From assembly GCF_000787775.1 (NCBI RefSeq), contig NZ_BBPM01000035.1:41997-80024 (forward strand): 38,028 nucleotides of DNA, given 5' to 3'. The notes under the pieces are model-generated. The model was not told where the DNA came from. It saw only the letters and a program-made list of their open reading frames with translations, and did no database searches. Position 1 is the first letter of the stretch; every line of letters begins with the position of its first letter. A program made the position numbers and the translations under genes. Positions 2,806 through 35,756 of the stretch are shown here, piece by piece. Origin of the DNA: Streptacidiphilus carbonis (GTDB taxonomy: Bacteria > Actinomycetota > Actinomycetes > Streptomycetales > Streptomycetaceae).

Positions 2806-3996
2806 TCAGGCGCGGAAACCGCTCGCGGCGAAGCCCAGAGCGCCGAAGCCCAGCGTGGCGAAGCGTTCGCCGATACGACGGTGGGTGGCTGCGTCCGGGT
2901 GGAGCTGGTCGGGCAGCGGCAGCTCGGCGAAGTCCGACTCGCCGTAGAGTTCCAGGCCGTCGAGGTAGTACAGGTTCGGGTCCTCGACGGCCCGTTGACG
3001 GACGATCCGGGACAGCTCCTCCCGGATCACAGTGAGGGTCAGCTTTCCGGCCGCCCGTTCGGCGGGGTCGCCGGTGGCCGTGAACCGCAGCTGTCCGGTG
3101 CTGAGCGCGCCCGGGTCGAAGGCGCTGGGGCCCGGGGTGTCCTCGTGGATGGCGCAGTAGATCGGCGAGATCACCAGCAGCGGTGTTTCGGGGTGGCCCT
3201 CGCGGATGGTGTCGAAGAAGCCGTGCACGGCGGGCGCGAACGCCCGCAGCCGCATCAGGTCGGTGTTGACCAGGTTGATGCCGATCTTGAGGCTCAGCAG
3301 GTCGGCGGGGGTGTCGCGGATGGCGCGGGCGGTGAAGGGGTCGAGCAGCGCGCTGCCGCCCAGGCCGAGGTTGATCAGCTCCAGCGCGTTGGCGGACGCG
3401 GCCAGAGCGGGCCAGGTGCTGCTCGGACCGGCGGCGTCGGAGCCGTGGCTGATCGAGCTGCCGTGGTGCAGCCAGACCTTGCGGCCGCGATCGGTCAGCG
3501 GCTCGACGGCGGCATCGGTGCGCAGTGCGACCAGTTCGGTGGTCTCGTTGTGCGGCAGCCAGATCTCGACGTCCTTGAGCGCGTCGGACAGACCGGTGAA
3601 GCCGATGGTGGCGACCGGGCCGGGTCGGCTCTCGGCGGTGCCGGTGGTCATGTCGATGGTGAGGGTGTTGCCGCCGACAGCTGCTGCCTGGGCCACCAAC
3701 TCGCCGTCGACCACCAGGTCGTAGACGCCGTCCGGGCGCGGCGGCGCGCCGACGTAGCGGCGCTTGGTCGGCAGTGTGTCGAGCTCGACGGCGGTGGCCC
3801 GGGTACGGAAGGCCAGCCGCACCCCCGAGGGCTGCGACTCGGCCATGGCCAGCTGCGGATCGGCGCACTGCGCGCGGGCCCGCGCGGGCAGCCGGTGCGG
3901 CAGCACGCCGCGTTCGGTCCGCTCCAGGTCGAGGGCGCCGCGCAGCAGGTCGGCGGTTATGGGCGTGTTGGTCCGAGGGGACTGAACAGTCGTCAT
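2806..3996 (-). CDS. SGNH/GDSL-type esterase with N-terminal beta domain
   Basis: This 396-residue hydrolase has two parts. Residues about 45-165 look like a beta-sandwich module (LAFRTRATAVELDT, YDLVVDGELVAQ). From about residue 172 an SGNH hydrolase follows. Block I is HHGSSISHG with probable nucleophile Ser181, block II is LGLGGSALLD around Gly213, block III is GINLVN with Asn241, and block V is DQLHPD with Asp363 and His366. Such two-domain SGNH proteins often remove acetyl or other acyl groups from sugars; the substrate here is unknown. No signal peptide is seen, so it should act in the cytoplasm. It starts 32 bp downstream of a tetR gene on the same strand and is probably co-transcribed with it. 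Confidence 0.82.
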   Translation of the reverse strand: MTTVQSPRTNTPITADLLRGALDLERTERGVLPHRLPARARAQCADPQLAMAESQPSGVRLAFRTRATAVELDTLPTKRRYVGAPPRPDGVYDLVVDGELVAQAAAVGGNTLTIDMTTGTAESRPGPVATIGFTGLSDALKDVEIWLPHNETTELVALRTDAAVEPLTDRGRKVWLHHGSSISHGSDAAGPSSTWPALAASANALELINLGLGGSALLDPFTARAIRDTPADLLSLKIGINLVNTDLMRLRAFAPAVHGFFDTIREGHPETPLLVISPIYCAIHEDTPGPSAFDPGALSTGQLRFTATGDPAERAAGKLTLTVIREELSRIVRQRAVEDPNLYYLDGLELYGESDFAELPLPDQLHPDAATHRRIGERFATLGFGALGFAASGFRA

Positions 3997-11792: not shown

Positions 11793-13064
11793 TCACGCGG
11801 TGGCGCTGGGGTCCTGGTAGACGGAGTCGAGGGCGAGGTAGGCGCCGCCGCGGGCCGGGGCGGTGAAGCCGAGGGTGGAGGGGAGGACTTCGCAGCCGCC
11901 GCAGTCGGGGGCCATGACGCGGCGGGCGACGCCCTCGCGGACGCTGGGGAGCAGGTAGTCGGCGAAGACGGCGAAGTAGCCGCCGAGGACCACGGCGCGC
12001 GGGTTGAGCACGTCGACCAGGAGGGCGACGCCCAGGGCCAGGTCGTCGGCGATCAGGGCGAGCGCCTCCAGGATGCGCGGGTCGCCGTCGTCCGCGCGGC
12101 GGCGCAGGTCGGCGAGGCGGGACTCGACGTCCAGGGACGGGTCGTGGACCGGGTCGTCGTGGTCGGGGGCGGCGTGCCGCAGCAGCGCGCCGAGGCCGAC
12201 CATGGTCTCCCAGCAGCCGACCCGGCCGCAGGCGCAGGGGCGGCCGCCGGGGGCCAGCGGCATATGGCCGATCTCGCCGGCGAACCCCCGTGCGCCGCGC
12301 ATGAGTTGGCCGCCGCTGATGATGCCGCCGCCGACCCCGGTCTCGCCGGTGATGTAGATCAGGTCGTGGATGTCGGAGGCCGAGGCGACCAGGTACTCGG
12401 CGATGGCGCCGAGTTTGGCGTCGTTCTCCAGCCGCAGCGGCGGCGCCTCGCGGCCCAGCCGCCGGCGCAGCCCGTCCACCGCCGCGACGTCGCGCCAGTC
12501 GATGTTGCTGGCGAAAGCCACCCGCCCGGTGGTGATGTCGACGTTCCCAGGGGCCGCCAGTGCCGCGCCCACCACCCGCGCGCCCACCGCCTGCACCGCC
12601 GCGGCGGCCTCGCGGATCAGGGTCGCCGCGCTGTCCAGGACGGCCTCGGATCCTGCCGACCGCACGTCGACGGCGATCCGCCGGGTGAAGGTCACGTCGC
12701 CGCGCAGGTTCAGCGCGACGACGGCCAGGTAGTCGACGTTGATCTCCAGACCGATCCCGCAGATCGTCCGCCCGTCGATCTCCACGGCCTGGCTCGGTCT
12801 GCCGACCGAGCCGTCGCGCTCCGAGGCGCCCTCCCGCACCAGGCCGAGTTCGACCAGTTCGGAGATCAGGCCGGTGATGGTGGGACGGGGGAGTCCGGTG
12901 TCCGAGGCGATCCGGGCCCGCGAGCGCGGGCCCGAGTCGCGCAGCAGCCGCAGCACCAGGCCGAGGTTGGTGCGCCGGATCGAGGCCCGGTCGCTCGGCT
13001 TGGACGGGCCGGCCATCGCCACCCCGTGCGCCGCGCCACCACGCAGGTCTGCCTTCACGCTCAC
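11793..13064 (-). CDS. ROK-family transcriptional repressor
   Basis: Residues about 26-82 form a MarR-like winged helix (SIRRTNLGLVLRLLRDSG, ARIASDTGLPRPTITGLISEL). The remainder is a ROK sugar-kinase-like domain. It has the ROK zinc motif GEIGH (His267) and CACGRVGC (Cys277, Cys279, Cys284), and the catalytic-type Asp215 in ENDAKLGAIAE. The phosphate-binding DxGxT of kinases is replaced by GIGLEINVDY, so it should bind but not phosphorylate its sugar. The GTG start has GGAGGG six bases upstream. It is divergent from the sugar ABC operon and most likely represses it. Confidence 0.92.
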   Translation of the reverse strand: MSVKADLRGGAAHGVAMAGPSKPSDRASIRRTNLGLVLRLLRDSGPRSRARIASDTGLPRPTITGLISELVELGLVREGASERDGSVGRPSQAVEIDGRTICGIGLEINVDYLAVVALNLRGDVTFTRRIAVDVRSAGSEAVLDSAATLIREAAAAVQAVGARVVGAALAAPGNVDITTGRVAFASNIDWRDVAAVDGLRRRLGREAPPLRLENDAKLGAIAEYLVASASDIHDLIYITGETGVGGGIISGGQLMRGARGFAGEIGHMPLAPGGRPCACGRVGCWETMVGLGALLRHAAPDHDDPVHDPSLDVESRLADLRRRADDGDPRILEALALIADDLALGVALLVDVLNPRAVVLGGYFAVFADYLLPSVREGVARRVMAPDCGGCEVLPSTLGFTAPARGGAYLALDSVYQDPSATA

Positions 13065-13209: not shown

Positions 13210-14529
13210 ATGAGACGACGTCAGATACGTGCCGTGGCACTGTGCGCCGCCCTCGCTTCCATGGCGGTGGTGAGCGGTTGCAGCAGCTCCGGCGGGAGCG
13301 CGGGCAGCGCGCAGAGCCCGTCCGCCGGTGGCACGGTGAAGCTCGACTTCTGGGGCTGGGCGCCCGGGTACGAGCAGTCGGTCGCGCTGTTCAACAAGAG
13401 CCACCCGGGCATCCAGGTCACCTTCGACAAGACGCCGTCCGGCTCCAAGGGCGGTTACACCAAGATGCTGACGGCCGCCCAGGCCGGCAATGCGCCGTGC
13501 CTGGGCATGGTCGGCTACGAGACCATGCCGAGCTTCGCCGCCGCCGGCGCGATGATGGACGTCACCCAGTACCTGGCCCCGGCCAAGAGCCAGTTCGCAG
13601 ACTGGACCTGGAACCAGGTGACCATTGGCGGCAAGACCTACGGCGCCCCGGTCGACACCGCGCCGATGGGCCTGCTCTACCGCAAGGACCTGTTCGCCAA
13701 GTACGGCATCGCCAGACCCCCGGCCACCTGGGACGAGTACGCGGCCGACGCGGCCCGGGTGCACGCCGCCGACCCCAGCGTCTACCTGGGCGACTTCGGC
13801 AACGACGCCTACAACTACGCCGGCCTGGCCTGGCAGGCCGGCGCGCCGTGGTTCGGCACCAGCGGCGGCCAGTGGCAGGTGTCGGTGAACAGCGCCGCCA
13901 ACCAGAAGGTCGCGAACTACTGGCAGGGCCTGCTGGACAAGAAGCTGCTGAAGACCGACCCCAGCTACGACCCCACCCTCTACAAGGACATGGCCTCCGG
14001 CAAGATCCTTTCCGACGTCAACGCGGTCTGGGACACGCCGATCCTGGCCTCCAGCGTCAAGGGCACCTCCGGCAAGTGGGCGGTCGCGCCGATGCCGGTC
14101 TGGGACGCGGCCGATCCGGTCTACGGCAATGACGGCGGCTCGGCCACCGTGGTGCTGAAGGGCTGTGCTCACCCCAAGGAGGCCGCCGAGTTCGCCACCT
14201 GGATGAGCACCGACCCCTCCAGCGTCAGCAACCTGATCAAGGTCACCGGCATCTACCCGGCGGCCACCTCGGGCCTGGCCAACCCGGCCCTGTCCGCGCC
14301 CGACCCCTTCTACGGCGGCCAGGTCGTCTTCGACGTCTTCAAGGCCGAGACCCCGCACATCGACACCTCCTGGGTGTGGGGCCCGACCATGACCCAGGCC
14401 TCGACCGACCTCGGCGACGGCCTCGGTACCAGCGCCGCGGGCAGCACCCGGCTGCCGGACGTGCTCAACACGGTGCAGACCAAGACGATCGCACAGCTGA
14501 AGCAGCAGGGGATGAGCGTCTCCGGATGA
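13210..14529 (+). CDS. ABC sugar-binding lipoprotein (family 1 type)
   Basis: The signal peptide ends in the lipobox VSGC (Cys24), so the mature protein is anchored to the outer face of the membrane. The rest (LDFWGWAPGYEQSVALFNKSHPGIQVTFDK, TWDEYAADAARVH, EAAEFATWMSTDP) is a 439-residue extracellular solute-binding protein of the maltose/oligosaccharide group. The number of aromatic residues (many Trp and Tyr) fits an oligosaccharide ligand. AGGAG lies seven bases before the ATG. It is the first gene of an operon with two permeases and two carbohydrate-related proteins. The sugar cannot be named from sequence alone. Confidence 0.92.
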   Translation: MRRRQIRAVALCAALASMAVVSGCSSSGGSAGSAQSPSAGGTVKLDFWGWAPGYEQSVALFNKSHPGIQVTFDKTPSGSKGGYTKMLTAAQAGNAPCLGMVGYETMPSFAAAGAMMDVTQYLAPAKSQFADWTWNQVTIGGKTYGAPVDTAPMGLLYRKDLFAKYGIARPPATWDEYAADAARVHAADPSVYLGDFGNDAYNYAGLAWQAGAPWFGTSGGQWQVSVNSAANQKVANYWQGLLDKKLLKTDPSYDPTLYKDMASGKILSDVNAVWDTPILASSVKGTSGKWAVAPMPVWDAADPVYGNDGGSATVVLKGCAHPKEAAEFATWMSTDPSSVSNLIKVTGIYPAATSGLANPALSAPDPFYGGQVVFDVFKAETPHIDTSWVWGPTMTQASTDLGDGLGTSAAGSTRLPDVLNTVQTKTIAQLKQQGMSVSG

Positions 14530-15479
14530 GCGCCCCGGCCACCTCCGTCACGCCCGCTCGACCCCCGACCTCCGCGGGCCCCGCCACCTCGCCGCACAAG
14601 CGGCGGCAGGCCCGGACCGCCGCCGCGTTCCTGCTGCCCTTCGCCGCGCTGTTCGCCGTCGCCTACGCGGCCCCCATCGGCTACACGCTCTACCAGAGCC
14701 TGTTCAAGATGCACCGGGACGGGCTCGGCCTGTCCGCCCCGACCAAGGCTTTCGCGGGACTGGGCAACTACTCCGACGCGCTGCACGACCCGGTGTTCCG
14801 CGGCGCGCTGCTGCGGGTGCTGCTGATCGGGGCCGTGCAGGTTCCGGTGATGCTCGGCCTGGCCCTCGGGCTGGCCCTGCTGCTGGACGCCAAGGGGACG
14901 CTGTTCAAGCGCTTCTTCCGGCTGGCCTTCTTCCTGCCCTACGCGCTGCCCGGGGTGGTCGGCGCGCTGATGTGGTCCTACCTGGTGGCCCCCGGCCTCA
15001 GCCCGATCACCTCGGCCGCCCACGCCGTCGGCGTGCACCTGGACCTGACCTCGGGACCGATGCTCGCCCCGACCATCGGCAACATGCTCACCTGGGGCTG
15101 GACCGGCTACAACATGCTAATCATCTACTCCGCGCTGCAGGCCATCCCGCCCGAACTGGCCGAGGCGGCACGGATGGACGGCTGCTCCGCCTGGGGCATC
15201 GCCTGGCATGTGAAGATCCCGATCGTGCGCCCGGCGCTGGTGCTCACCACCGTCTTCTCCATCATCGGCACCGCGCAGCTCTACAACGAGCCGGCCGTGC
15301 TGCAGCACGTCGCCCCCAACCTCAGCAGCAACTACACGCCGATCTTCGCCGCCTACAACGCGGTCAACGACAACAACTTCGGCTACGCCGCCACCGAGTC
15401 GGTGGTGCTCGCGGCACTCGCCTTCGTGCTCTCCTTCGGCTTCCTGAAGCTGGTCCAGCGGCGGGGGGCGGCACTGTGA
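14526..15479 (+). CDS. ABC sugar permease, MalF/UgpA type
   Basis: The 317-residue protein has about six membrane helices. It carries the conserved cytoplasmic EAA loop (EAARMDGCSAWGIAWHVKIPI, from about residue 211), which contacts the ATPase. The basic N-terminus (HKRRQART) before the first helix is typical. The ATG overlaps the stop of the binding-protein gene (ATGA), indicating translational coupling; an upstream reading from 14376 would lie inside that gene. No ATPase gene is in the operon. Actinobacterial importers of this class commonly use a shared MsiK-type ATPase encoded elsewhere. Confidence 0.92.
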   Translation: MSAPATSVTPARPPTSAGPATSPHKRRQARTAAAFLLPFAALFAVAYAAPIGYTLYQSLFKMHRDGLGLSAPTKAFAGLGNYSDALHDPVFRGALLRVLLIGAVQVPVMLGLALGLALLLDAKGTLFKRFFRLAFFLPYALPGVVGALMWSYLVAPGLSPITSAAHAVGVHLDLTSGPMLAPTIGNMLTWGWTGYNMLIIYSALQAIPPELAEAARMDGCSAWGIAWHVKIPIVRPALVLTTVFSIIGTAQLYNEPAVLQHVAPNLSSNYTPIFAAYNAVNDNNFGYAATESVVLAALAFVLSFGFLKLVQRRGAAL

Positions 15480-16381
15480 CGACGCTTCAGACGACGAGGA
15501 CCGCACCGGCCCAGCCGGTCGTCCGGTCGCGCAGGCCGACCCCGGCTCACCCTTCGCGCTGGCTCACCCTCGGGGTGCTGGGCCTCGTCTCGGTCTACTT
15601 CCTGGCCCCGGTGTGGTGGCTGGTGGTGTCCAGCACCAAGAGCAACTCGGCGCTGTTCAACGGCAGCGGCTTCTGGTTCAGCGGCCGTTTCGCACTGCTG
15701 TCCAACCTGCAGGACGTGTTCACCCGGCAGGGCGCCATCTATCCGCGCTGGCTGCTCAACACCGCCCTGTACGCGGTCGGCGGCGCGGCGGTCAGCACCC
15801 TGGTCTCCGCGCTGGCCGGCTACGCCCTGGCCAAGTACGCGTTCCGGGGCCGGGAGACCGTCTTCAACATCGTGCTCGCGGCCGTCCTGGTCCCGCAGCC
15901 GCTGCTGGCCGTGCCGCTCTACCTGCTGTTCTCGCCGGTGCACCTGGTCAACACCTACTGGGGCGTGCTGATCCCCAGCATGGTCAGCCCGTTCGGGGTC
16001 TACCTGGCCAGGATCTACGCCGCCGCCTCCGTCCCGGACGAGCTGATCGAGGCCGGGCGGGTCGACGGCGCCGGCGAGGTCCGCATCTTCGCCACCATCG
16101 GCCTGCGGCTGATGTCCCCGGCGCTGGTCACCGTGTTCCTGTTCCAGTTCGTCGGGATCTGGTCCAACTACCTGCTGCCCGCGCTGATGCTGGCCGACGA
16201 CAAGCTGCAGCCGGTCACCGTCGGCCTGGTCGGCTGGCAGGCCCAGCGCGGGATCGGCGACGCGGTGCCGTTCAACATCGTGATCACCGCGGCGGCCGTG
16301 TCGGTGATCCCACTGATCATCATGTTCCTTTCGCTGCAACGGTTCTGGCGCTCCGGCCTGTCGGCCGGCAGCGTCAAATGA
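15476..16381 (+). CDS. ABC sugar permease, MalG/UgpE type
   Basis: The 301-residue partner permease has about six helices, the MalG-like LAGYALAKYAFRGRE segment after the second helix, and the EAA loop EAGRVDGAGEVRIFATIGL (about residue 192). The GTG start overlaps the preceding stop (GTGA). Earlier in-frame ATGs lie inside the first permease gene and add no membrane-protein sequence. With the binding protein and the first permease it forms the import channel. Confidence 0.92.
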   Translation: MTTLQTTRTAPAQPVVRSRRPTPAHPSRWLTLGVLGLVSVYFLAPVWWLVVSSTKSNSALFNGSGFWFSGRFALLSNLQDVFTRQGAIYPRWLLNTALYAVGGAAVSTLVSALAGYALAKYAFRGRETVFNIVLAAVLVPQPLLAVPLYLLFSPVHLVNTYWGVLIPSMVSPFGVYLARIYAAASVPDELIEAGRVDGAGEVRIFATIGLRLMSPALVTVFLFQFVGIWSNYLLPALMLADDKLQPVTVGLVGWQAQRGIGDAVPFNIVITAAAVSVIPLIIMFLSLQRFWRSGLSAGSVK

Positions 16382-16392
16382 AGGGGAGCTGG

Positions 16393-18396
16393 ATGCGCGC
16401 GCGCTACCACCTCAGATTCCAGATCCACCCCGACCCCGACCCGGCCCGCGTCGCCGCCGACGCCACCGAGCTGGCCAAGGCCTGCGCGCAGGCCCAGGTG
16501 GACGAAGTGGTGCTGCTCACCGGCGCCGAGGAGTCCTTCGCCGGACACCTCACCGACGCGGAGGAGAGCGTCTGGTTCGAGACGGCCCGACTGGCCAAGG
16601 ACACCCTGGAGGCGGCCGGCCTGGAGGTCAGCCTGAACCCCTGGGTCACCGTCGGCCACGCCGACCGGGGCCGGAACGGCGCGCTGGAGCGGCTCGGCTT
16701 CGCCCCCATGGTCTCCCCGGACGGCCAGGCCTCCACCGCGCAGGCCTCCTTCGCCTGCCCCCGCTGGCGCGCCTGGATCGTCGCCCACTACGGGCGGTTC
16801 GCCGAACTCGGCTTCCGGGTGCTGTGGTTGGAGGACGACTTCCGCTACCACAACCACGCCCCGCTGCACTGGGGCGGCGGCTTCGAGCCGCTGATGCTGG
16901 AGCGCTTCACCGCCCTGACGGGATGGAACGTCACCCCGCAGGAGCTGACGGAAGCGCTGACCGCCCCCGGCCGACCGCACCCCTGGCGCATCCTGCTGCA
17001 ACAGGTCTGGCGCGAGGCCCAGTTGGAGGTTGTCGCCGCCGTCGCCACCGAGGTCGAGCAGCGCTCGCGGGGACGCTCCCGGCTCGGGCTGATGAGCTCG
17101 GGCCTGGACGCGGCATCGGTCGAGGGACGCGACTGGCCGGCACTGTTCGGCGCACTCGCCATCGGCGGCCGGGCCGCGCAGCGACCGCACTTCGCCCCCT
17201 ACACCGACACCCCGGGGCGGGAGTTGAGCCGGCAGATCTGGTCCCTGGAACTGCAGCGCGCGCTGCGCCCCGACTTCGTGGACAGCGAACCGGAGATCGA
17301 GAACTGGCCGCACACCGCCTGGTCCAAGTCGGACACCCAGACCTGGTCCGAGATGGCCGCCGCGCAGCTGGCCGGTTCGGACGCGCTGCTGCTCAACGTG
17401 CACCCCATGCACGGCCGCCGGGCGGCCCGCTTCCCCCGGGTCACCGAACTGCTGGCCCGCTCCCGGCCCGCGCTGGACTGGCTGGCCGCCCGCTACCACC
17501 GGGACCAGTCGACCATCGGGGTGGGCCTGCCCTTCGCCCAGGACGCGGCGGCCCATGTCCGCACCCGGAGCGGCGGCGCACCGGCCCTGGCCGAACTGGC
17601 CGTCGACCCGGGGCCGGTGGCCGACCTGCTGCTGCGCTACGGCGTCCCGGTCACGGCCGACCCGCGGGCCCCGGTGCAGGCGCTGTTCGGTCAGTCGGCC
17701 TGGGCCCTCGCGGACGAGGAACTGCACCGCCTGCTCGGCGGCGGCCTGCTGCTGGACGGGACGGCGGCCGCGATCCTGGTCCAGCGCGGCTTCGGACCAC
17801 TGCTCGGCCTGGACGACGTCGAGCTGGTGCGGCGCGAGCAGCCGGACCCGCGCGGGCCCTACGCGGAGGAGTACGTCCCTGGCACCGGCGCGGTGCTCAG
17901 CGTCAATATGCAGCCCACCCTCGCCCGCCTTGCGCCAGGTCCGGACACGGAGACCTGGACGGAGATCCGCACACCGCAGGGCCTGCGCTGGGGCGCCGGC
18001 CGCACCGCCTTCCGCAACCGCCTCGGCGGCCGGGTGGCGGTCCTCGCGGCCACCGATCCGTCCCAGCTGCCCTACGACGACAGCGGCCAGCACCTGCTGC
18101 ACCGCGCGGTGCGCTTCCTGGAGGGCGACCGGCCGCGGCTCCCGCTGGTCACCGGCGGCCCCCACCTGATCCCGCACGCCTCGCGCCGCGACGGAACCAC
18201 CCGGCTCGCGATCGCCAACGGCAGCGCCGACTCCGTTCGGCCGCACATCGCGATGCCCGCAGCCCCCACCGACCCGCACGCGACCCTGCTGCGCCCGCTT
18301 GCGGAACCCGCGTCCGCCGGCACCTCGGCCCAGCCGGACGGCCTGCAGCTGGAGGCGGACCTGCCGCACCGCGGCTGGCTGGTCCTCGAATGGTGA
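16393..18396 (+). CDS. Unassigned glycosidase-like protein in the sugar ABC operon
   Basis: I do not recognise a named family. The 667-residue protein has no signal peptide and so should be cytoplasmic. Residues about 5-330 look like a (beta/alpha)8 barrel: strand-like LRFQIH, VDEVVLLTG, LEVSLNPWV, FRVLWLEDDFRYHNH (Glu147, Asp148, Asp149), and ALRPDFVDSEPEIENWPH (Glu299, Glu301, Glu303). Those two acidic groups are candidate catalytic residues. The C-terminal part (VPGTGAVLSVNMQPTL, GRTAFRNRLGGRVAVLA, GTTRLAIANGSADSVRP) resembles the beta-rich ends of GH42-like or related enzymes. The ATG at 16393 has AAGGGGAG just upstream; an alternative ATG at 16378 overlaps the permease stop. Its place right after the permeases suggests that it cuts the imported oligosaccharide. 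Confidence 0.7.
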   Translation: MRARYHLRFQIHPDPDPARVAADATELAKACAQAQVDEVVLLTGAEESFAGHLTDAEESVWFETARLAKDTLEAAGLEVSLNPWVTVGHADRGRNGALERLGFAPMVSPDGQASTAQASFACPRWRAWIVAHYGRFAELGFRVLWLEDDFRYHNHAPLHWGGGFEPLMLERFTALTGWNVTPQELTEALTAPGRPHPWRILLQQVWREAQLEVVAAVATEVEQRSRGRSRLGLMSSGLDAASVEGRDWPALFGALAIGGRAAQRPHFAPYTDTPGRELSRQIWSLELQRALRPDFVDSEPEIENWPHTAWSKSDTQTWSEMAAAQLAGSDALLLNVHPMHGRRAARFPRVTELLARSRPALDWLAARYHRDQSTIGVGLPFAQDAAAHVRTRSGGAPALAELAVDPGPVADLLLRYGVPVTADPRAPVQALFGQSAWALADEELHRLLGGGLLLDGTAAAILVQRGFGPLLGLDDVELVRREQPDPRGPYAEEYVPGTGAVLSVNMQPTLARLAPGPDTETWTEIRTPQGLRWGAGRTAFRNRLGGRVAVLAATDPSQLPYDDSGQHLLHRAVRFLEGDRPRLPLVTGGPHLIPHASRRDGTTRLAIANGSADSVRPHIAMPAAPTDPHATLLRPLAEPASAGTSAQPDGLQLEADLPHRGWLVLEW

Positions 18397-18437: not shown

Positions 18438-20675
18438 ATGTCAGCCCCGCACCGGAAGCCCGTCCCCGCAACCGCCGCCATCGGCGCCGTCGCGCTGGCC
18501 CTGGCCGGCACCGGCCTGCTGGCCCCTCCCGCCTCGGCGACCCCGCCGACCAGCGGATACACCGTCACCATCGGGTCCACCGGCAGCTACGCCTACCCGA
18601 CCGACACCCCCGCCAGCCCGTACCTCGACAAGGACGGCACCTTCTACTTCCAGCAGTCCGCGTCGCTGTACGGCAGCACCGACCCGCGCTACTGGGATTT
18701 CTACACCGGCACCGACTTCGACAGCGCCACCCGGTCCAGCGCCATCAGCAACGCGGTGAACCCCGCCAACCACCTCGACAGGAACAACGACACCACCTAC
18801 CGCTGCAACAACAGCCCCACGGGGAGGACGGCGACCGCAGCCCCGGCCGGCTCCGGCTACTCCCAGAAGAACTTCTGCGACCTGCTCGGCGTGTGGGTCG
18901 ACCCCGACACCGGCAACTGGTACGGCCTGGTGCACAACGAGTTCACCCCGGAGCCGTTCGGCGCCAACTCCTTCTCGCACTACGACGCCATCGACTACGC
19001 CGTCTCCACCGACCAGGGCAAGGTGTGGACCATCACCGGCCACGCCATCACCAGCCCGTACAGCACCACCCGCGGCGACACCACGGCCTTCCCCAACGGC
19101 ACCTTCGACTACGGCGACGGCGACCCGCGACTGTACGTCGACAGCGCATCCGGCTACTTCTATGTCTACTACGGCTCGCGGATCGTCCCCAAGGCGGGCA
19201 CCAGCGGGAGCACCGGCGACCTGGCCCATGTCGCCCGGGCGCCCATCTCCGGGAAGATGGCCGGCGGCACCTGGCAGAAGTGGTACAACGGCTCCTGGTC
19301 CCAGCCCGGGGTGGGCGGCCTGGAGAGCAACATGGTGCCGGCCACCGCCGCCGCCCCCAGCGGCTACACCCCGGTCGCCAACGACTACAACCCGGCCAAC
19401 GCCGGCACCGTGGACCAGCAGATCGCGGCGAACGAACTGCCGGCCAAGTCCCCCCTCGTCGTCATGAACATCACCTACGACGCCTACCTGGGCCTCTACA
19501 TCGGCGAACCCGAGACGAAGCAGCAGTCGGGCACCGAGCCGCAGCAGTACTACGCCACCGACGACCTCTCCACCCAGAAGTGGTACCTGATCGGCGACTC
19601 CGGCAGCTACACCTCCGGCTCCTGGTACCGCTGGATCCTCGACAGCGCCAACCTGACCAGCTCCACCATCGTCGGCAGGACCTTCCGCTCCTACTGCGCG
19701 ATCGCCTGCGCCAGCTCCGACGGCGAGTACGCCAACACCACCATCGACTCGGCCACCCCGGCCAAGTCGCCGTTCGACCCGGCCAAGACGTACCGGATCA
19801 GCGGCGGCAACGGGCGCGTCCTGGCCCAGGTCTCCGGGAGCGCCCGCACCACCTCGGACGCGGCCGCGACCGGGTCGGGGCTGGAGAGCTGGCAGTTCAG
19901 CGCCAACGGCGACGGCTCCTACCGGATCACCAACGCCGCGACCGGGCAGGTGCTGGGCGTCGACTCCTCCTCCACCGCCGACCGGGCCTGGGGCACCAAG
20001 CCGACCGCCACCGCCCTCGGCGCGGGCAACGGCACCGTCGGCCAGCAGTGGTTCGTCGTCAAGAACGCCTCCCCGGCCGGGACCTACCGCCTCGTCAACC
20101 GCTACAGCGGCCTGGTGCTCGGACTGTCCTCGGACGCCTCCCGCACCGCCGAGACCACACCCACCCGCACCTGGACCGACACCACCGGCAGCGCCGTCGG
20201 CGGCAACCGCAGCGCCGCCGAGCAGACCCTGACGGTCACCCCCGTCGGCACCGCCGCCAACCTCGACGGCACCCATGTGCTGTCGGTCTCCGGCCACGCG
20301 CTGGACGACCCCGACTGGGCCACCGGCACCGACCCCACCGTCCAGCTGGACACCTGGACCAGCAACGGCGGCGCCAACCAGAACTGGGTGTTCACCCGGC
20401 AGCCGGACGGCGACTACACCCTCAAGAACGCCTACTCGGGCCTGTGCGCCGACGACTTCGGCGGCGGCACCGCCGCCGGGACCAAGGTGATCCAGTGGAC
20501 CTGCACCGGCGGCAGCAACCAGGAGTGGGCCCTGAACCGGCTGCCGTCCGGCGCCTGGACGGTCACCAACTCCCACACCGGGCTGCTGCTCACCACCTCG
20601 AAGTCCGCCGACGGCGGGCTGGTGACCCAGCAGCGGAGCAACGGTTCCGCACTCCAGCAGTGGACGATCAGCTGA
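18438..20675 (+). CDS. Secreted protein with propeller-like domain and ricin-type lectin repeats
   Basis: This 745-residue protein has a Sec signal peptide (residues 1-35, ending ASA). The N-terminal part (about 36-450) is rich in Tyr, Asp and Trp and has blade-like repeats (GVWVDPDTGNWYGLVHNEF, DYAVSTDQGKVWTITGH, GDPRLYVDSASGYFYVYYG). This looks like a beta-propeller of the GH43/DUF4185 sort; I cannot assign a family. The C-terminal part holds two ricin-B/CBM13 lectin modules with Q-x-W signatures (WQF about 484, QQW about 535, NQNW about 646, NQEW about 693, LQQW about 738). GGAGGA precedes the ATG. It lies 41 bp after the glycosidase-like gene, so it is the last gene of the operon and probably the extracellular enzyme feeding the importer. 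Confidence 0.8.
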   Translation: MSAPHRKPVPATAAIGAVALALAGTGLLAPPASATPPTSGYTVTIGSTGSYAYPTDTPASPYLDKDGTFYFQQSASLYGSTDPRYWDFYTGTDFDSATRSSAISNAVNPANHLDRNNDTTYRCNNSPTGRTATAAPAGSGYSQKNFCDLLGVWVDPDTGNWYGLVHNEFTPEPFGANSFSHYDAIDYAVSTDQGKVWTITGHAITSPYSTTRGDTTAFPNGTFDYGDGDPRLYVDSASGYFYVYYGSRIVPKAGTSGSTGDLAHVARAPISGKMAGGTWQKWYNGSWSQPGVGGLESNMVPATAAAPSGYTPVANDYNPANAGTVDQQIAANELPAKSPLVVMNITYDAYLGLYIGEPETKQQSGTEPQQYYATDDLSTQKWYLIGDSGSYTSGSWYRWILDSANLTSSTIVGRTFRSYCAIACASSDGEYANTTIDSATPAKSPFDPAKTYRISGGNGRVLAQVSGSARTTSDAAATGSGLESWQFSANGDGSYRITNAATGQVLGVDSSSTADRAWGTKPTATALGAGNGTVGQQWFVVKNASPAGTYRLVNRYSGLVLGLSSDASRTAETTPTRTWTDTTGSAVGGNRSAAEQTLTVTPVGTAANLDGTHVLSVSGHALDDPDWATGTDPTVQLDTWTSNGGANQNWVFTRQPDGDYTLKNAYSGLCADDFGGGTAAGTKVIQWTCTGGSNQEWALNRLPSGAWTVTNSHTGLLLTTSKSADGGLVTQQRSNGSALQQWTIS

Positions 20676-28313: not shown

Positions 28314-29348
28314 GTGGCGGCAAGGAGCGGCGGCTCGGCGGTGGCGCGGCTCAAGGACGTCGCGGAGGCCGCCGGGGTCTCGGTGAAGACGGTCTCCAAT
28401 GTCGTCAACGGATCCGTCCAGGTGGCCGAGGAGACCCGGGCCCGGGTCCAGCTGGCGATCGACGAGTTGGGCTACCAGCCGAACATGACGGCCCGTCGGC
28501 TGCGCACGGGACGCAGCGGGGTGATCGCCCTGGCCTTCCCCGAACTGCCTTCGCCGTACTTCGCCGAACTCGCGGTCGAGGTGATCGCGGCGGCCCGCCG
28601 GCACGGCTGCACGGTGCTGATGGACGACACCGGGGGAGACCCGGGGGCGGAGCTGCGGATCGCCTCGGGGCTCGGCGATCCGATGATCGACGGGGTGATC
28701 CTGAGCCCGCTGGGGCTGGACCAGGCCGAGCTGGTGGACCGGGAGCGCCCGATCCCGCTGGTGCTGCTCGGCGAGGCCGACCTGGGCCCGGTCGCGGACC
28801 GGGTGCACATCGACAATGTGTCGGCGGCCCGGGACGCCACCCGGCACCTGGTGGACCAGGGGTACCGCCGGATCGGCGCCATCGGCTGGCAGGACCCCTC
28901 GCCCCGGGCCACCGCGCAGCAGCGGCTGCAGGGCTACGCCGAGGCACTGCAGAGCGCCGGGCTGCAGCTGGACCCCGCGCTCCACCCGCCGGTGCGCTCC
29001 TACTTCCGGCCGGACGGGGCCGCGGCGATGCGGCGGCTGCTGAAGCTGCCGGAACGGCCCGACGCCGTCTTCTGCTTCAACGACCTGCTGGCGCTGGGTG
29101 CGATGCGCGCGGTGCACGAGGCGGGGCTGCGGACTCCGGAGGACATCGCGCTGGTCGGCTTCGACGACGTGGAGGAGGCCGAGTACGCGATCCCCTCGCT
29201 GACGACCATCGCCCCGGACAAGACCAAGATCGCGGAACTGGCGGTCAGCCTGCTGCTGCAGCGGATCGTCCACGGGGACGCGGCGCCCAGTCAGTTCCTG
29301 ACCCCTGGTTACCGGTTGGTGGTCCGGGAGAGCAGCCGCCGCCGCTGA
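28314..29348 (+). CDS. LacI-family repressor, paralogue of the lacI in the ABC operon
   Basis: The helix-turn-helix (RLKDVAEAAGVSVKTVSNVV, residues 12-31) and hinge (LAIDELGYQPNMTARRLRTG) are canonical. The sensor domain has IALAFPELPSPYFAELA, FCFNDLLALGAMRAVHE, VGFDDVEEAEYAIPSLTTIA and PDKTKIAELAV. Nearly the same signatures recur in the LacI at 29504-30535, so the two are paralogues. The GTG at 28314 is my choice because it gives the usual short lead before the helix-turn-helix; GGAGGTGG lies about 14 bases upstream, so the exact start is uncertain. It is convergent with the ABC operon across a long hairpin and is a candidate regulator of that operon. Confidence 0.9.
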   Translation: MAARSGGSAVARLKDVAEAAGVSVKTVSNVVNGSVQVAEETRARVQLAIDELGYQPNMTARRLRTGRSGVIALAFPELPSPYFAELAVEVIAAARRHGCTVLMDDTGGDPGAELRIASGLGDPMIDGVILSPLGLDQAELVDRERPIPLVLLGEADLGPVADRVHIDNVSAARDATRHLVDQGYRRIGAIGWQDPSPRATAQQRLQGYAEALQSAGLQLDPALHPPVRSYFRPDGAAAMRRLLKLPERPDAVFCFNDLLALGAMRAVHEAGLRTPEDIALVGFDDVEEAEYAIPSLTTIAPDKTKIAELAVSLLLQRIVHGDAAPSQFLTPGYRLVVRESSRRR

Positions 29349-29376
29349 GGGATCGTCCTCATCCGCGGACCGTAGG

Positions 29377-29479
29377 TGGTTGGTCGCGCAGTTCCCCGCG
29401 CCCCTGACGGGGCTGCAACTGAACCACGGTGAGTGAGTTGCACCCCCTCCAGGGGCGCGGGGAACTGCGCGACCAACCA
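29377..29479. terminator. Long two-part hairpin, repeated streptomycete-type element
   Basis: Perfect 30-bp arms (29377-29406 and 29450-29479, beginning TGGTTGGTCGCGCAGTTCCC) flank 43 bases. Within these is a second stem of 12-bp arms with one mismatch (GGGGCTGCAACT at 29409-29420, AGTTGCACCCCC at 29436-29447). I recall the GCGCAGTTCCCCGCGCCCCT core from many intergenic sites in Streptomyces genomes. It lies between two converging lacI genes and should stop transcription from both. Confidence 0.8.
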
Positions 29480-29503
29480 GGCACATGCGGCACCGAAAGG
29501 CCG

Positions 29504-30535
29504 TCAGAACCTCCGCCCGGCCCCCGCCGTGGACTCCCGCACGACGAGCCTGTGACCGGGACGGATCCGCCGTGGCGGGGGTGCCGCCTGCCGGCTGCCC
29601 GCGGCGATGCGTTCCAGGAGGCAGTCCACCGCGAGTCGGGCGATCTCATGCTTGTCCGGGGCGACCGTGGTCAGGGACACCGCTGCGTAGCGGCCTTCCT
29701 CGACGTCGTCGAATCCCACCACGGCCACGTCCTGCGGCACCCGCAGCCCGCGTTCCGACAGGGCGCGCATCGCCCCGAGGGCCACCACGTCGTTGTAGGC
29801 GAAGACGGCGTCGAGCCGCTCGCCGCGGTCCAGCAGGGCGGCCATCGCGACCGCGCCGTCGCGGCGGTCGTAGCCCTCGGTGGCGGCGACCAGCGCGTCC
29901 CGGGCGACTCCGCCGGACGCGGTGATCTCCTGCCGCCAGCCGCGCAGCCGCAGATGGGCCGGCTGCCGCGCGCTCTCCTGCCGGGCGCCCAGGAAGGCGA
30001 TGTGACGGCGGCCCAGGTCCAGCAGGTGCCGAACGGCGGCCCGGGCGGCGGCGACATTGTCGATGGCGATGTGGTCGTACGGCGCGTCGTACTCCCGCTC
30101 GCCGAGCAGCACCATCGGCGGTCCCCCGGTCCGCGCGAGCAGGTCCTCGGCCTCCAGCTGGATCGGGCTGAGGATGAGTCCGTCGATGAGGTGCGCGCGG
30201 AAGCCCTGGGAGACCAGGGCCTCCTTCTCACGCAGCCCTGCGGTGTGGTCGAGCAGCACGATCTGCTCATGCAGCGCGGCCGCGTCGATGACGGCTCCGG
30301 CGACCTCGGCGAAGTACGGGTTGCCGAGTTCGGGGACGGCCAGCGCGATGATGCCGGTACGGCCCTTGCGCAGGTGGCGCGCCGTCAGATTGGGCCGGTA
30401 GCCCAGTTCGTCGATGGCGCGCTGGACCCGGGCCCGCGTCTCCGGCGTCACATGGGGATAGGCGTTGACCACATTGGAGACGGTCTTGACGGACACGCCC
30501 GCGCGGAGCGCGACGTCCTTGAGGCTGACGCCCAC
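29504..30535 (-). CDS. LacI-family repressor, last gene of the ABC operon
   Basis: The 343-residue protein begins MGVSLKDVALRAGVSVKTVS, a canonical LacI helix-turn-helix, with the hinge ELGYRPNLTARHLRKG. Sensor-domain landmarks are GIIALAVPELGNPYFAEVAG, VFAYNDVVALGAMRALSE and GFDDVEEGRYAAVSLTTVAP. The GTG start has AGGAAAGAG upstream. It starts 36 bp after the second permease on the same strand, so it is co-transcribed with the importer that it probably controls. Its paralogue lies just beyond the hairpin, so which of the two binds the shared CG-centred operator is open. Confidence 0.92.
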   Translation of the reverse strand: MGVSLKDVALRAGVSVKTVSNVVNAYPHVTPETRARVQRAIDELGYRPNLTARHLRKGRTGIIALAVPELGNPYFAEVAGAVIDAAALHEQIVLLDHTAGLREKEALVSQGFRAHLIDGLILSPIQLEAEDLLARTGGPPMVLLGEREYDAPYDHIAIDNVAAARAAVRHLLDLGRRHIAFLGARQESARQPAHLRLRGWRQEITASGGVARDALVAATEGYDRRDGAVAMAALLDRGERLDAVFAYNDVVALGAMRALSERGLRVPQDVAVVGFDDVEEGRYAAVSLTTVAPDKHEIARLAVDCLLERIAAGSRQAAPPPRRIRPGHRLVVRESTAGAGRRF

Positions 30536-30571
30536 GGCACTCTTTCCTGGTGTTCGAAACGGGCGCTGCGG

Positions 30572-31594
30572 TCAGGACAGCTGCTGGGTTCTGCTGAGGA
30601 GTGTCTGCAGCAGCACCACCAGCGCCAGGAACGCGCCGTTGACGGTGTCGGTGAAGGCCGACCCGTACTGGGAGAAGTAGTGGTCGATCAGGTTGTGGAT
30701 CACCGCGAGCAGCAGTACCCCGCTGACGGTGCCGCCGATGGAGCCGCTGCCGCCGGTGAGCAGCGTGCCGCCGATGACGACGGCGGAGATGGCGGTGAGC
30801 TCGTAGCCGACGCCGATGGTGGTGACGCCCGATCCGAGGCGTGCGCTGCCCAGAGCGCCTGCTGCGGCGGCCAGGGTGCCGGAGAGCAGGTAGACCAGGA
30901 CCTTGGCGCGGGCGACCGGCAGACCCATCAGCACGGCGGCGTTCTCGTTGCCGCCCAGCGCGGTGAGGGCGGCGCCGAAACGGGTGCGGGTCAGCAGCAG
31001 CCCTCCGAGCGCGAACAGCACCGCTACCAGGACCACCGGCGTCCACACCCCGGCGCCGAGGTTGCGGAACCACGACCCGGCCGGAACCAGATAGGTGGTC
31101 GCCCCTTCACGGGTGACCGCCTGCAGCAGTCCGCGGGCGCCGAGCAGCCCGGCCAGGGTGACGATGAAGGGCGCCATGCCGGCCCGGGCGATCAGCAGTC
31201 CCTGGACGGTTCCCCAGGCAGCGCCGACCGCCAGCGGCAGCAGGATCGCGAGCCAGGTCCCGCCGGTCTGCGCGCCGTAGGCGCCCAGTACCCCGCCGAG
31301 CGCGTACATCGAGCCCACGGAGAGGTCGATTCCGCCGGTGATGATCACAAAGGTCATGCCGAGGGCGAGCAGCCAGACGAAGGCGTTGTTCCCCAGGATG
31401 CTGCTGATGTTGGACCAGGTGGGGAAGGTCGCGGAGGTGGCCGAGGCGATGGCGGCGACCAGCACCAGCACCGCGAGCGCGCCGCGGTGCTGGATCTGCC
31501 CGGCGAGCCGTTCGCGCAGCGGCAGCCGGGCGCCCTGGGCCGCCGGGCCGGTCCCGGCGGGCGTCGTGGTGGACGGGAGGACGGTGGGGCTCAT
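30572..31594 (-). CDS. ABC sugar permease, second subunit (YjfF/RbsC type)
   Basis: The 340-residue protein is of the BPD_transp_2 family with 8-10 helices. It has the conserved FVIITGGIDLSVGSMYALGG segment, then GMAPFIVTLAGLLGARGL, GNENAAVLMGLPVAR, and VVIGGTLLTGGSGSIGGTV. The ATG overlaps the stop of the first permease (TGA/ATG on the minus strand). Frames that extend further upstream are the shadow of that gene. It pairs with the first permease to form a ribose/galactofuranose-type channel. Confidence 0.93.
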   Translation of the reverse strand: MSPTVLPSTTTPAGTGPAAQGARLPLRERLAGQIQHRGALAVLVLVAAIASATSATFPTWSNISSILGNNAFVWLLALGMTFVIITGGIDLSVGSMYALGGVLGAYGAQTGGTWLAILLPLAVGAAWGTVQGLLIARAGMAPFIVTLAGLLGARGLLQAVTREGATTYLVPAGSWFRNLGAGVWTPVVLVAVLFALGGLLLTRTRFGAALTALGGNENAAVLMGLPVARAKVLVYLLSGTLAAAAGALGSARLGSGVTTIGVGYELTAISAVVIGGTLLTGGSGSIGGTVSGVLLLAVIHNLIDHYFSQYGSAFTDTVNGAFLALVVLLQTLLSRTQQLS

Positions 31595-32556
31595 CGGGTA
31601 CCACGCTCCTGCGAGGCGTACACGGCGCAGCAGATGATGGCCGCCTCGACGATCTGGGTGTACGAGTTGGGCACGTCGTGCTGGGTGAGCACGGCGGTGA
31701 TCAGCTGCATGAACAGCGCCCCGGCCACGGTGCCGAGCACCCGGACCCGGCCGCCGGTCAGCGGGGTGCCGCCGACCACCACCGCGGTGATCGCGTTGAG
31801 CTCCAGGTTCAGCCCCTGGTTGGCCGGGTCCGCCTCGGCGCCGTGGCCGACGATCATCACTCCGGCGAGGGCGGCCAGCACCCCGGAGACCACGTAGACG
31901 GTCAGCAGCACCCGCCGCACCGGCAGGCCCGCCAGCCGGCTCGCCTGCCGGTTGTCGCCGATGGCGACGAGGCGTCGGCCGAAGGTGGTGCGGCGCACCA
32001 CGAAGCCGACGACCAGCGCGCACAGCGCGGCGATCCAGGCCATCAGCGGGACGCCGCTGAAGCTGTCGGAGCCCAGCCCCAGCAGCGCGGCGTCGGTGAC
32101 CGGCTTGGCGGAGTTGCCGTTGACGATCTCGGCGAGCCCGCGCACTCCGATCATCAGCGACAGCGTCGCCACGATGGGCTGCACCCGGGCGAAGGCGACC
32201 ATCGCCCCGCCCACCGCCCCGGTGGCGGCGCCCAGGAGCAGGGCCAGCAGCAGCGCCGGGGCGAGCCCGTAGCCCAGGTAGAGCGGGACGACCGCGGCGG
32301 CGAGCGCGACCACGGCGCCGACGGAGAGGTCGATGCCCTCGGTGCCGATGACCAGGGCCATGCCGAGGGCGACCAGCAGGGTGGGGGCGACCTGGAACAG
32401 CTGGATGCGGACATTGCCGGAGGACACGAAGCTGCCGTCGAGGGCGACGGCGACCAGGAACAGGACGGCCAGCGCCGCGTACACGCCGTACTCCTGAAGC
32501 AGTCTCAGCAGCCGGTCGCGGTCGCGGATCGCGCCGGTCCAGGCGAGGGTGGTCAT
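31591..32556 (-). CDS. ABC sugar permease, first subunit (YtfT/RbsC type)
   Basis: The 321-residue BPD_transp_2 permease has LVIGTEGIDLSVGAVVALAA, VQPIVATLSLMIGVRGLAEI, VNGNSAKPVTD, GDNRQASRLAGLPVRR and VVVGGTPLTGGRVRVLGTV. The start overlaps the ATPase stop by 4 bp. The IVNGNSAKPV-like loop recalls YtfT more than RbsC, in line with the binding protein, but this is a weak guide. Two different permease genes in one operon is the layout of the E. coli ytfQRT-yjfF system. Confidence 0.93.
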   Translation of the reverse strand: MTTLAWTGAIRDRDRLLRLLQEYGVYAALAVLFLVAVALDGSFVSSGNVRIQLFQVAPTLLVALGMALVIGTEGIDLSVGAVVALAAAVVPLYLGYGLAPALLLALLLGAATGAVGGAMVAFARVQPIVATLSLMIGVRGLAEIVNGNSAKPVTDAALLGLGSDSFSGVPLMAWIAALCALVVGFVVRRTTFGRRLVAIGDNRQASRLAGLPVRRVLLTVYVVSGVLAALAGVMIVGHGAEADPANQGLNLELNAITAVVVGGTPLTGGRVRVLGTVAGALFMQLITAVLTQHDVPNSYTQIVEAAIICCAVYASQERGTR

Positions 32557-34181
32557 GACTGCGGCTCCTTGTCGTGGTCCTGCCTGTCCTGCCCGACCTG
32601 CCTGTCCTGCCCGACCTGCCCGACCTGACCGACCTGCCTGTCCTGTCCGTCCTGGGCCAGGGCTCCGAGCAGTGCGTCCTCGCTGACCTGGTCGCCTGCG
32701 AGCTCGCCGACGACCCGGCCGTCCTTGAGGACCACCACCCGGTCCGACCCCTCGATCAGCTCCTCCAGCTCGGAGGAGATCAGCAGCACGCCGAGTCCGT
32801 CGCCGGCCAGCTCGTTGATCAGTGCCTGCACCTCGGCCTTGGCGCCGACGTCGATCCCGCGGGTGGGCTCGTCCAGCAGCAGGACCTTGGGCTGCAGGCA
32901 TAGCCAGCGGGCCAGCAGCACCTTCTGCTGGTTGCCGCCGGACAGGTCGCCGACCCGCTGGTCCGGGCCGGAGGCCTTGATCCGCAGCCGGTCCATGAAG
33001 AACCGCACCAGTTCGTCCTGCTTGGCCTGGGAGACCAGGCCGGCCCGGGACAGCCGCGGCAGCGCGGCCAGCGCGATGTTCTCGCGCACCGACAGGCTGG
33101 GGATGATGCCCTCGGCCTTGCGGTCCTCGGCCAGCATGACCACCCCGGCCCGCATCGCGGCGGCGGGGCTGCGGCGGCGCAGGACAGTACCGTCGACCTC
33201 GACCGATCCGCCGTCGGCGGCCAGCGCGCCGATGATGGCCTTGGCGGTCTCGCTGCGGCCCGCGCCCAGCAGCCCGCCCAGGCCGACGACCTCGCCGGGG
33301 CGGATGTCCAGGGAGACCCCGTGCAGGCGGTGACGCACGTTCAGCTGCGTCGCCCGGAGGGCGGGCCGGCCCTCGGTCGCGGCGTCGCGGTCGGCGTCGA
33401 AGGCGGTGGCGCCCTCCTCCCGGACGGTGGCCGGCTCCCGGCCGAGCATCAGCGAGATCAGCTTCAGCCGCTCCAGTCCGGCGATCTCCCCGGTGTGCAC
33501 GACCGCGCCGTCGCGCATGACGGTGACCCGGTCGCAGACCGCGTAGAGCTCGTCCAGCCGGTGGCTGACGTAGACCACGGCGATGCCGTGGTCCTTCAAC
33601 CGGCGGATCACCTCGAACAGGGTGTCCACCTCGCGGGGCTCCAGGGACGAGGTCGGCTCGTCCATGATCACCACTCGGGCGTCCACCTGCACCGCGCGGG
33701 CCAGCGCCACCATCTGCTGCGCGCCGAGCCCCAGCGTCCGCAGCGGCCGGGTGACGTCGGTGTCCACGCCGAAGCGCCGCAGCTCCGCCGCCGCGTCGCG
33801 GTTCATCCGGCGTACGTCGACCAGGCCGAGGCGGCGCGGTTCGCGGCCCAGGTAGAGGTTGCGGGCCACCGACATCAGCGGCACCAGGTTGACCTCCTGG
33901 TAGATGGTCGAGATCCCGGCCGCCTGGGCCTCCAGCGGATTGCGGAACTCCCGGTCCCGGCCCGCGAACCGGATCCGGCCGGCGTCCGGGCGGTAGACCC
34001 CGGTCATCACCTTGATCAGGGTGGACTTGCCGGCGCCGTTCTCGCCGATCAGGGCGTGCACCTCGCCCTGGCGCAGGGTGAAGTGCACACCGATCAGGGC
34101 GTGCACGCCCGCGAAGCTCTTGTCGACCCCGGCGACCTCCAGGACGGAGTCGGGCACGGGGACCGGGGCCTGCTGGACCAA
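32553..34181 (-). CDS. Sugar ABC transporter ATPase, duplicated (YtfR/RbsA type)
   Basis: The 542-residue protein is two fused ATPase domains. The first has Walker A GENGAGKST (46-54), a variant signature LGLGAQQMVALARA and Walker B VVIMDEPTS. The second has a degenerate Walker A GGLLGAGRSE, signature LSGGNQQKVLLARW and Walker B LLLDEPTRGID. This is the normal pattern of RbsA/XylG/YtfR proteins. The start is TTG, fixed by GGAGG six bases upstream. The last 30 or so residues are a run of Q-D/V-R/G tripeptides encoded by a 9-bp tandem repeat, which is not part of the family fold. A strong hairpin separates it from the binding-protein gene. Confidence 0.95.
   Translation of the reverse strand: MVQQAPVPVPDSVLEVAGVDKSFAGVHALIGVHFTLRQGEVHALIGENGAGKSTLIKVMTGVYRPDAGRIRFAGRDREFRNPLEAQAAGISTIYQEVNLVPLMSVARNLYLGREPRRLGLVDVRRMNRDAAAELRRFGVDTDVTRPLRTLGLGAQQMVALARAVQVDARVVIMDEPTSSLEPREVDTLFEVIRRLKDHGIAVVYVSHRLDELYAVCDRVTVMRDGAVVHTGEIAGLERLKLISLMLGREPATVREEGATAFDADRDAATEGRPALRATQLNVRHRLHGVSLDIRPGEVVGLGGLLGAGRSETAKAIIGALAADGGSVEVDGTVLRRRSPAAAMRAGVVMLAEDRKAEGIIPSLSVRENIALAALPRLSRAGLVSQAKQDELVRFFMDRLRIKASGPDQRVGDLSGGNQQKVLLARWLCLQPKVLLLDEPTRGIDVGAKAEVQALINELAGDGLGVLLISSELEELIEGSDRVVVLKDGRVVGELAGDQVSEDALLGALAQDGQDRQVGQVGQVGQDRQVGQDRQDHDKEPQS
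32579..32659. repeat. 9-bp tandem repeat in the ATPase 3' end
   Basis: Nine units of the form CCTGCCYGW run without gaps, mostly CCTGCCTGT or CCTGCCCGA; the last two are degenerate. On the coding strand they give Gln-Asp-Arg/Gln-Val-Gly tripeptides. As the unit is a multiple of three, a change in copy number would keep the frame. Confidence 0.9.
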
Positions 34182-34198
34182 CGTTTACCTCCTCGGAC

Positions 34199-34242
34199 GG
34201 GGCCGCCGCCGGCCCCGGGGCCGTGTCCGCTGCGGCGGCCCC
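34199..34242 (-). terminator. Hairpin between binding-protein and ATPase genes
   Basis: Perfect 11-bp arms GGGGCCGCCGC (34199-34209) and GCGGCGGCCCC (34232-34242). This position is typical for a partial terminator or RNA-stabilising stem that gives more binding protein than ATPase and permease. Confidence 0.6.
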
Positions 34243-34264
34243 GGGTGCCCGCGACCGGGCCGGA

Positions 34265-35480: not shown

Positions 35481-35688
35481 GAGTCTGTGCCGCAAACGAT
35501 TCAGACGACGTGTCAGACAGCGGCGGTAAAGGGTCCAGTCGCCCGCGATGTGGCCGGTCGAGGGGGTGAGTGGCAGTAAAGGTCCAGCTCAGGACAGACT
35601 CTGACGCTCCATCGGATGTTGCGGGAGTGGATGTCGAGGGGGTGGACACGACGCGATCACCGTGCTGTCATTCTTCCGGTCGCGTATT

Positions 35689-35700: not shown

Positions 35701-35756
35701 ATCCAGATTTCCCCCTGCCACCACTGCTCTGCCGAGCAGCCCCTGGAGGAACACAC

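Follow-up and report, generated by a model that had tools for sequence, protein, structure and literature searches.

A predicted cytoplasmic GH42-like glycosidase of a probably unlisted sequence family in a sugar importer operon of Streptacidiphilus carbonis

Streptacidiphilus carbonis encodes a 667-residue protein in a sugar ABC transporter operon, which we interpret as a cytoplasmic, three-domain GH42-like glycosidase of an unlisted family that would cleave imported galactosamine-containing oligosaccharides (probability of about 0.5 for this reading as a whole). Judging from its predicted structure and its invariant acidic residues, the enzyme is very likely an active GH42-like glycosidase. 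It probably represents a sequence family that is missing from Pfam, NCBIfam and the sequences of the PDB, and not a new fold. Whether its substrate contains galactosamine (GalN) or N-acetylgalactosamine (GalNAc) is an evenly balanced question, and we infer such a substrate from a combination of several weak signals.

The operon and its surroundings

The enzyme gene occupies positions 16393-18396 on the forward strand of the window (the whole stretch of 38,028 nucleotides analysed here) and translates to 667 amino acids plus a stop codon, in line with the original prediction. Its reading frame remains open farther upstream to a GTG at 15613, and the ATG at 16393 matches the starts of homologues. 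A signal peptide was not evident by eye, and the product was read as cytoplasmic. The host genome contains a single copy of the gene.

The operon further contains genes for a sugar ABC solute-binding protein (SBP; 13210-14529, forward strand; PF01547, E 8.2e-38) and two ABC permeases on the same strand. Permease 1 spans 14526-15479, with its start taken from a simple gene finder (PF00528, E 2.9e-13 on 14529-15479), and permease 2 spans 15479-16381, with its start at 15479 or later (PF00528, E 1.3e-12). The enzyme gene starts 11 bases past the end of permease 2 (16381) and is followed by a gene for a 745-residue protein with ricin-type lectin domains (18438-20675, forward strand; PF14200 and PF00652), which carries an apparent export signal by eye. 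A ROK-family transcriptional regulator with an N-terminal winged helix-turn-helix domain is encoded divergently (11793-13064, reverse strand; PF00480, E 6.8e-48, and HTH_IclR).

Elsewhere in the window, a GDSL/SGNH-type esterase with an SsfX3-like N-domain (2806-3996) adjoins a LacI-type regulator and is kept near the operon in one related locus (L007). By eye, the region 28341-35383 encodes two LacI-type regulators and a seemingly ribose-type ABC system consisting of two permeases, a double ATPase and a binding protein. A glutaminase A-type protein (35616-37952; GtaA_6_Hairpin, E 1.3e-140) has a twin-arginine-like leader, likewise by eye.

Sequence searches and distribution

The enzyme matched no Pfam family at E values up to 1, a three-member alignment matched none at E values up to 10, and searches of NCBIfam gave no match for the enzyme or for four relatives. 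Among four further relatives compared with Pfam, two were matchless and two had only matches to unrelated families that scored below the curated cut-offs. Searches of PDB sequences with the enzyme matched no glycosidase, and a family profile of 18 rows yielded six matches up to E 10 among all PDB sequences, none of which is a glycosidase. PDB matches to argonaute (E 0.49) and to septin and plectasin (E 0.075 to 1.7) were regarded as fortuitous.

Assignment to GH42 by sequence was rejected on the basis of a missing PF02449 match and a profile-profile probability of 0.5% against nine GH42 proteins from the host and its relatives; ten such loci had been retrieved, of which L049 was excluded because of its unsettled frame. 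GH164 was rejected by sequence, as the beta-mannosidase Bs164 is absent from the family-profile PDB matches up to E 10, and so was GH112, for which there was no PF09508 match. GH153, the family of PgaB, gave neither a Pfam nor a PDB sequence match, though its barrel fold is similar. The original prediction of a new glycosidase family is partly supported: no Pfam or NCBIfam family and no PDB glycosidase was matched by sequence, which makes an unlisted sequence family probable, but the fold follows the plan of GH42 and GH164.

Families can exist in CAZy that are represented neither by a Pfam or NCBIfam model nor by a solved structure, and the comparison made here was with Pfam, NCBIfam and the PDB. 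The enzyme could therefore be just a new member of such a family; we consider this rather unlikely, and against it stands that no description of the enzyme family was found in the open-access literature.

The enzyme is rare, being present in three of 394 genomes of the class, including that of the host. A scan of genome contigs recovered 34 loci, most of them matching over the whole length, because of which the gene is taken to be more than a chance open reading frame; as the scan used two short peptide patterns, this number is a lower bound. At 33 of the loci the protein shares 52-89% identity with the query, and these belong to the genera Streptacidiphilus, Kitasatospora, Streptomyces, Streptantibioticus, Nonomuraea, Streptosporangium and Actinokineospora; the remaining one, from a Microbacterium metagenome-assembled genome (MAG), shares 32%. 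A plasmid collection contained three more relatives, two of them from Streptomyces with 34-36% identity to the query. The relative on a Subdoligranulum variabile element is 28% identical to the query and 46% identical to the Microbacterium protein; its locus (L042) corresponds to OY725846.1, 31053-50885, part of a circular record of 386,527 bases labelled as a Subdoligranulum variabile plasmid. A profile search of the phylum (396 genomes, three candidates scored per genome) returned the host's own copy and one weak match over 55 positions (E 0.005), and a search of viral contigs returned no relative of the enzyme. In one Streptacidiphilus locus (L040:4617-9758), the enzyme, SBP and permease 2 genes are each broken across several frames, perhaps through sequencing error.

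Two alignments were used for conservation. Alignment A2 contains 33 rows, with L036 and L040 excluded for interrupted frames, and alignment A4 contains 18 rows, in which the query is joined by 14 genome loci (out of 34) and the three plasmid loci.

Predicted fold and relation to known glycosidases

An AlphaFold2 model computed from 33 rows (mean pLDDT 90.3, pTM 0.92) shows a predicted (beta/alpha)8 barrel at residues ~1-370, as the barrel-like strands of the original prediction had suggested, followed by middle and C-terminal domains at residues ~371-667. Over its whole length, the model presents a GH42-type barrel, a trimerization domain and a C-terminal beta domain. The best Foldseek match was a GH42 beta-galactosidase (E 6.3e-21, TM 0.63 by query length). 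VIA-align gave Z 23.7 against the Thermus GH42 enzyme 1kwg (rmsd 4.3 over 548 residues, 14% identity), Z 23.0 against a beta-1,2-glucosyltransferase and Z 21.7 against GH164, while the barrel alone matched PgaB with Z 23.4 over 318-323 residues. As VIA rows within 1 Z are treated as tied, no single nearest fold family is named. The fold is not new, since GH42 and GH164 enzymes have this three-domain plan in its entirety. Known folds carried by unrelated sequences have precedents in the GH5 mannosidase Op5Man5, as described in PMC8233224, and in GH164, as described in PMC7105311.

With GH42 (1kwg, 4uoq, 5e9a), the enzyme shares the full-length three-domain plan of the model and acidic residues at strands 4 and 7, but it is only 10-15% identical, has no PF02449 match and carries EDD instead of HNEY at strand 4. 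GH42 enzymes are homotrimers with beta-galactosidase or arabinopyranosidase activity; the enzyme is probably a homotrimer as well. The GH164 beta-mannosidase Bs164 (6t5o, 6t7g) resembles it in having a barrel, a trimerization domain and a beta domain, and the catalytic acids of Bs164 are reported to lie on strands 4 and 7 (PMC7105311), like the invariant acids of the enzyme; identity, however, is ~10%, with no sequence match. Op5Man5, with its GH42-type trimer, is a precedent for this architecture at insignificant sequence similarity, but it is reported to be without GH42's small C-terminal domain (PMC8233224), and the enzyme has no match to GH5 or any other Pfam family.

The C-terminal domain of PgaB (GH153; 4p7l, 4p7o) has the barrel in common with the enzyme and, according to PMC5933820, an Asp-based strand-4 site that acts on a glucosamine polymer; it shares the barrel only, at 10-11% identity, and GH153 has no assigned second catalytic carboxylate. 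The galactosaminidases of GH114, GH135, GH166 and GH191 have an acid pair on a barrel and act on galactosamine polymers, the substrate class proposed here, but according to PMC12054363 they consist of a single, modified barrel whose acid pair is Asp/Glu. These four families are not named among the 50 matches listed by Foldseek and VIA, which excludes nothing, and the enzyme has no Pfam match.

Invariant acidic residues and the putative active site

In the model, strand 4 of the barrel comprises residues 143-147 and strand 7 lies within residues 296-303. The two acidic motifs of the original prediction were found at the positions claimed, LEDDFRYHN at 146-154 (E147, D148, D149) and DSEPEIENW at 297-305 (E299, E301, E303). 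The check it proposed, whether these acids are invariant, came out positive for E147, D149, E301 and E303, and D148 is invariant as well: all five are conserved in 33/33 rows of A2 and 18/18 rows of A4, with E147, D148 and D149 following barrel strand 4 and E301 and E303 located on strand 7, near the strand ends in the model. E299, in contrast, is kept in 22 of the 33 rows of A2 and replaced in 11, and was rejected as a catalytic residue because of this variation.

Of the 62 invariant columns of A4, those in residues 1-370 concentrate at or just after strand ends (24/112 positions, vs 20/258 elsewhere), an enrichment whose Fisher p of 0.0004 is nominal because the face was self-defined and the rows are related. 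Just before the barrel strands, 3/104 positions are invariant in A4. Two loops at the active site, residues 86-93 and 152-154, are modelled with pLDDT under 50.

Barrel pseudoenzymes exist, and the barrel could in principle belong to a non-catalytic sugar-binding or regulatory protein. However, even with sequences as distant as 28% identity included, seven acidic residues of the barrel half are invariant, and strands 4 and 7 carry five of these at their ends; we regard a non-catalytic role as very improbable. A clan GH-A-type glycosidase outside the tested sequence families is probable, because a full-length fold match coincides with acidic residues that never vary at strands 4 and 7. By analogy with GH42, one of E147, D148 and D149 would replace the Glu of the HNEY motif present at strand 4 in the nine GH42 proteins, and a retaining mechanism would be expected. 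For PgaB, an Asp, D474, is given as the probable catalytic residue (PMC5933820).

The propeller-lectin partner

The N-domain of the 745-residue protein encoded downstream (18543-19793) is a predicted beta-propeller, which is followed by the C-terminal ricin-type lectin domains. Pfam searches with this N-domain gave nothing convincing, with BNR matched by one of 19 members (E 0.014) and SelR by one of 19 (E 0.36). Eighteen of 21 homologues were aligned (A5), excluding L040, L035 and L016 as incomplete. The model has a mean pLDDT of 76. The best VIA rows were an endo-alpha-D-arabinanase (Z 18.3) and exo-beta-1,3-galactanases (Z 17.2-18.0), and an N-acetylgalactosamine deacetylase was also among the rows (Z 16.6). 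Foldseek ranked GH117 and sialidases first, at TM values under 0.5. Given the moderate confidence of the model and fold rows spread over several families, these matches fix neither a family nor an activity for the partner.

Gene neighbourhoods and the putative substrate

Neighbouring genes were compared at 37 loci, not counting L005 and L006, which duplicate the contigs of L031 and L037. The resulting counts are lower bounds because some loci are cut by contig ends, and gene starts are approximate because they come from a simple gene finder trained on the genes of the window. In 18 of the 37 loci, of the Streptomycetaceae type, the enzyme gene comes immediately after permease 2, a recurrence that supports the place behind the permeases given in the original prediction. 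An SBP match is present in 20/37 loci and a ROK match in 28/37, and the importer operon recurs in Streptacidiphilus, Kitasatospora and Streptomyces. The propeller-lectin protein has a match in 21/37 loci; in 12 of these, its gene is the next one after the enzyme and has the same orientation. Six loci (L015, L026, L032, L036, L039 and L042) lack SBP, ROK and permease matches to the window genes at the threshold used; among these, L026 contains an importer that looks dipeptide-type and L039 has its own SBP. Gfo/Idh/MocA oxidoreductases are encoded near the enzyme in eight loci (Nonomuraea, Streptosporangium and two Streptomyces).

Genes of a tagatose-type pathway (SIS protein, kinase, aldolase) are located near the enzyme in four of the 37 loci (L034, L019, L018 and L011). 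In L034, the genes that come next on the enzyme's strand encode, in this order, a SIS protein, a ROK sugar kinase, a PfkB-type kinase and a class II ketose-bisphosphate aldolase. In L019, the enzyme gene is immediately succeeded by those for SIS, ROK kinase and aldolase, ordered as in L034, and a nagA-like fragment lies on the opposite strand at the end of the locus. A DeoR regulator (AgaR-like, below cut-off), a SIS protein and an aldolase are found near the enzyme in L018, and an aldolase in L011. The host itself encodes adjacent SIS, PfkB and class II aldolase genes that are 58-66% identical to those of L034, on a different contig (C70; L057:8839-11526) and thus unlinked to the enzyme operon. 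Judged by TIGR02815 (34.5 bits vs a cut-off of 529), the SIS protein is no canonical AgaS; likewise, the matches of the kinase, AgaR-like and NanA-like proteins fall short of the equivalog cut-offs.

GH20 genes lie beside relatives of the enzyme in four of the 37 loci, with Pfam tested in two. The Microbacterium and Subdoligranulum-element relatives adjoin sialic-acid-type enzymes; a sialate-acetylesterase-type protein, an aldo-keto reductase and, at a score below cut-off, a NanA-like protein are common to L039 and L042. In one Streptomyces locus (L044), genes for the enzyme, SBP, two permeases and a GH101 protein follow each other on one strand, the only one of the 37 loci with GH101. A search of the host genome for GH101 gave no match, but 14 control genomes were equally silent and absence is not shown; a search for GH112 in 98 genomes of the class likewise gave no match, with controls equally silent.

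GH112 has a GH42-like barrel and is an intracellular enzyme for GalN/GalNAc oligosaccharides. Built on a GH42-like scaffold, the enzyme could be a phosphorylase of glycosides or a transglycosidase, acting for example on Gal-beta-1,3-GalNAc with phosphate in the manner of GH112, which would agree with GH101 beside the Streptomyces relative, with the beta-1,2-glucosyltransferase among the best fold rows and with a strand-4 EDD unlike the HNEY of GH42. We nevertheless consider this improbable: neither PF09508 nor any other family was matched, and the strand-7 acid is conserved, as in retaining hydrolases.

A hydrolase acting on galactosaminides would agree with the published route of GalNAc breakdown, which is described as running via tagatose 6-phosphate with agaS as its signature gene (PMC5583593, PMC3668189); the former source also describes GnbG as an intracellular enzyme for GalN/GalNAc oligosaccharides. 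The Streptomyces SIS enzyme NagS, on the other hand, is reported not to have bound GalNAc-6P (PMC12680351), a result that calls for caution in reading SIS proteins as galactosamine enzymes.

The imported sugar might instead be neutral (a galactoside, xyloside, mannoside or arabinoside) and cleaved by the same GH42-like glycosidase, with amino-sugar neighbours being coincidental or reflecting a lineage-specific substrate. GH42 and GH164 enzymes are described as acting on neutral sugars (PMC7105311, PMC8233224), 33 of the 37 loci have no tagatose-type genes, and the fold comparison of the partner places an arabinanase and beta-1,3-galactanases at the top. Furthermore, xylose-isomerase-like and FGGY-kinase-like proteins are encoded in L016, L021 and L025 (by eye), a GH27-type alpha-galactosidase in L038 and a GH32 protein in L005. 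Amino-sugar-type neighbours recur, however, in separate settings (SIS/aldolase, GH20 and GH101), and a neutral substrate, while a serious alternative, appears less likely than one containing galactosamine.

Proposed pathway and implications

For a galactosaminide-cleaving enzyme, the following sequence of steps can be proposed. The propeller-lectin protein, if exported as its leader suggests, would bind and may trim a glycan outside the cell, and the SBP-permease importer, controlled by the ROK regulator, would bring in the oligosaccharide. The cytoplasmic enzyme would then catalyse its cleavage, with a carboxylate of the strand-4 EDD motif as putative general acid/base and, on strand 7, E301 in the putative role of nucleophile, and the freed galactosamine or GalNAc unit would enter a tagatose-6-phosphate-type pathway. 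More tentatively, the enzyme may define a clan GH-A family not described before, made up of cytoplasmic hydrolases of galactosaminides. With the putatively secreted propeller-lectin protein, it would form a dedicated system with which soil actinomycetes degrade a glycan containing galactosamine, for instance fungal galactosaminogalactan or an O-glycan of the mucin type.

Another sequence family on a known fold is an expected kind of finding. If the proposed reading is right, clan GH-A would gain a sequence family with the unusual strand-4 motif EDD[FI]RxHNH, and a recurrent transporter operon would obtain a testable substrate class. The enzyme would then join GnbG and GH112 among the intracellular enzymes that act on GalN/GalNAc oligosaccharides, and the putatively secreted partner together with the predicted substrate class makes the proposal directly testable.
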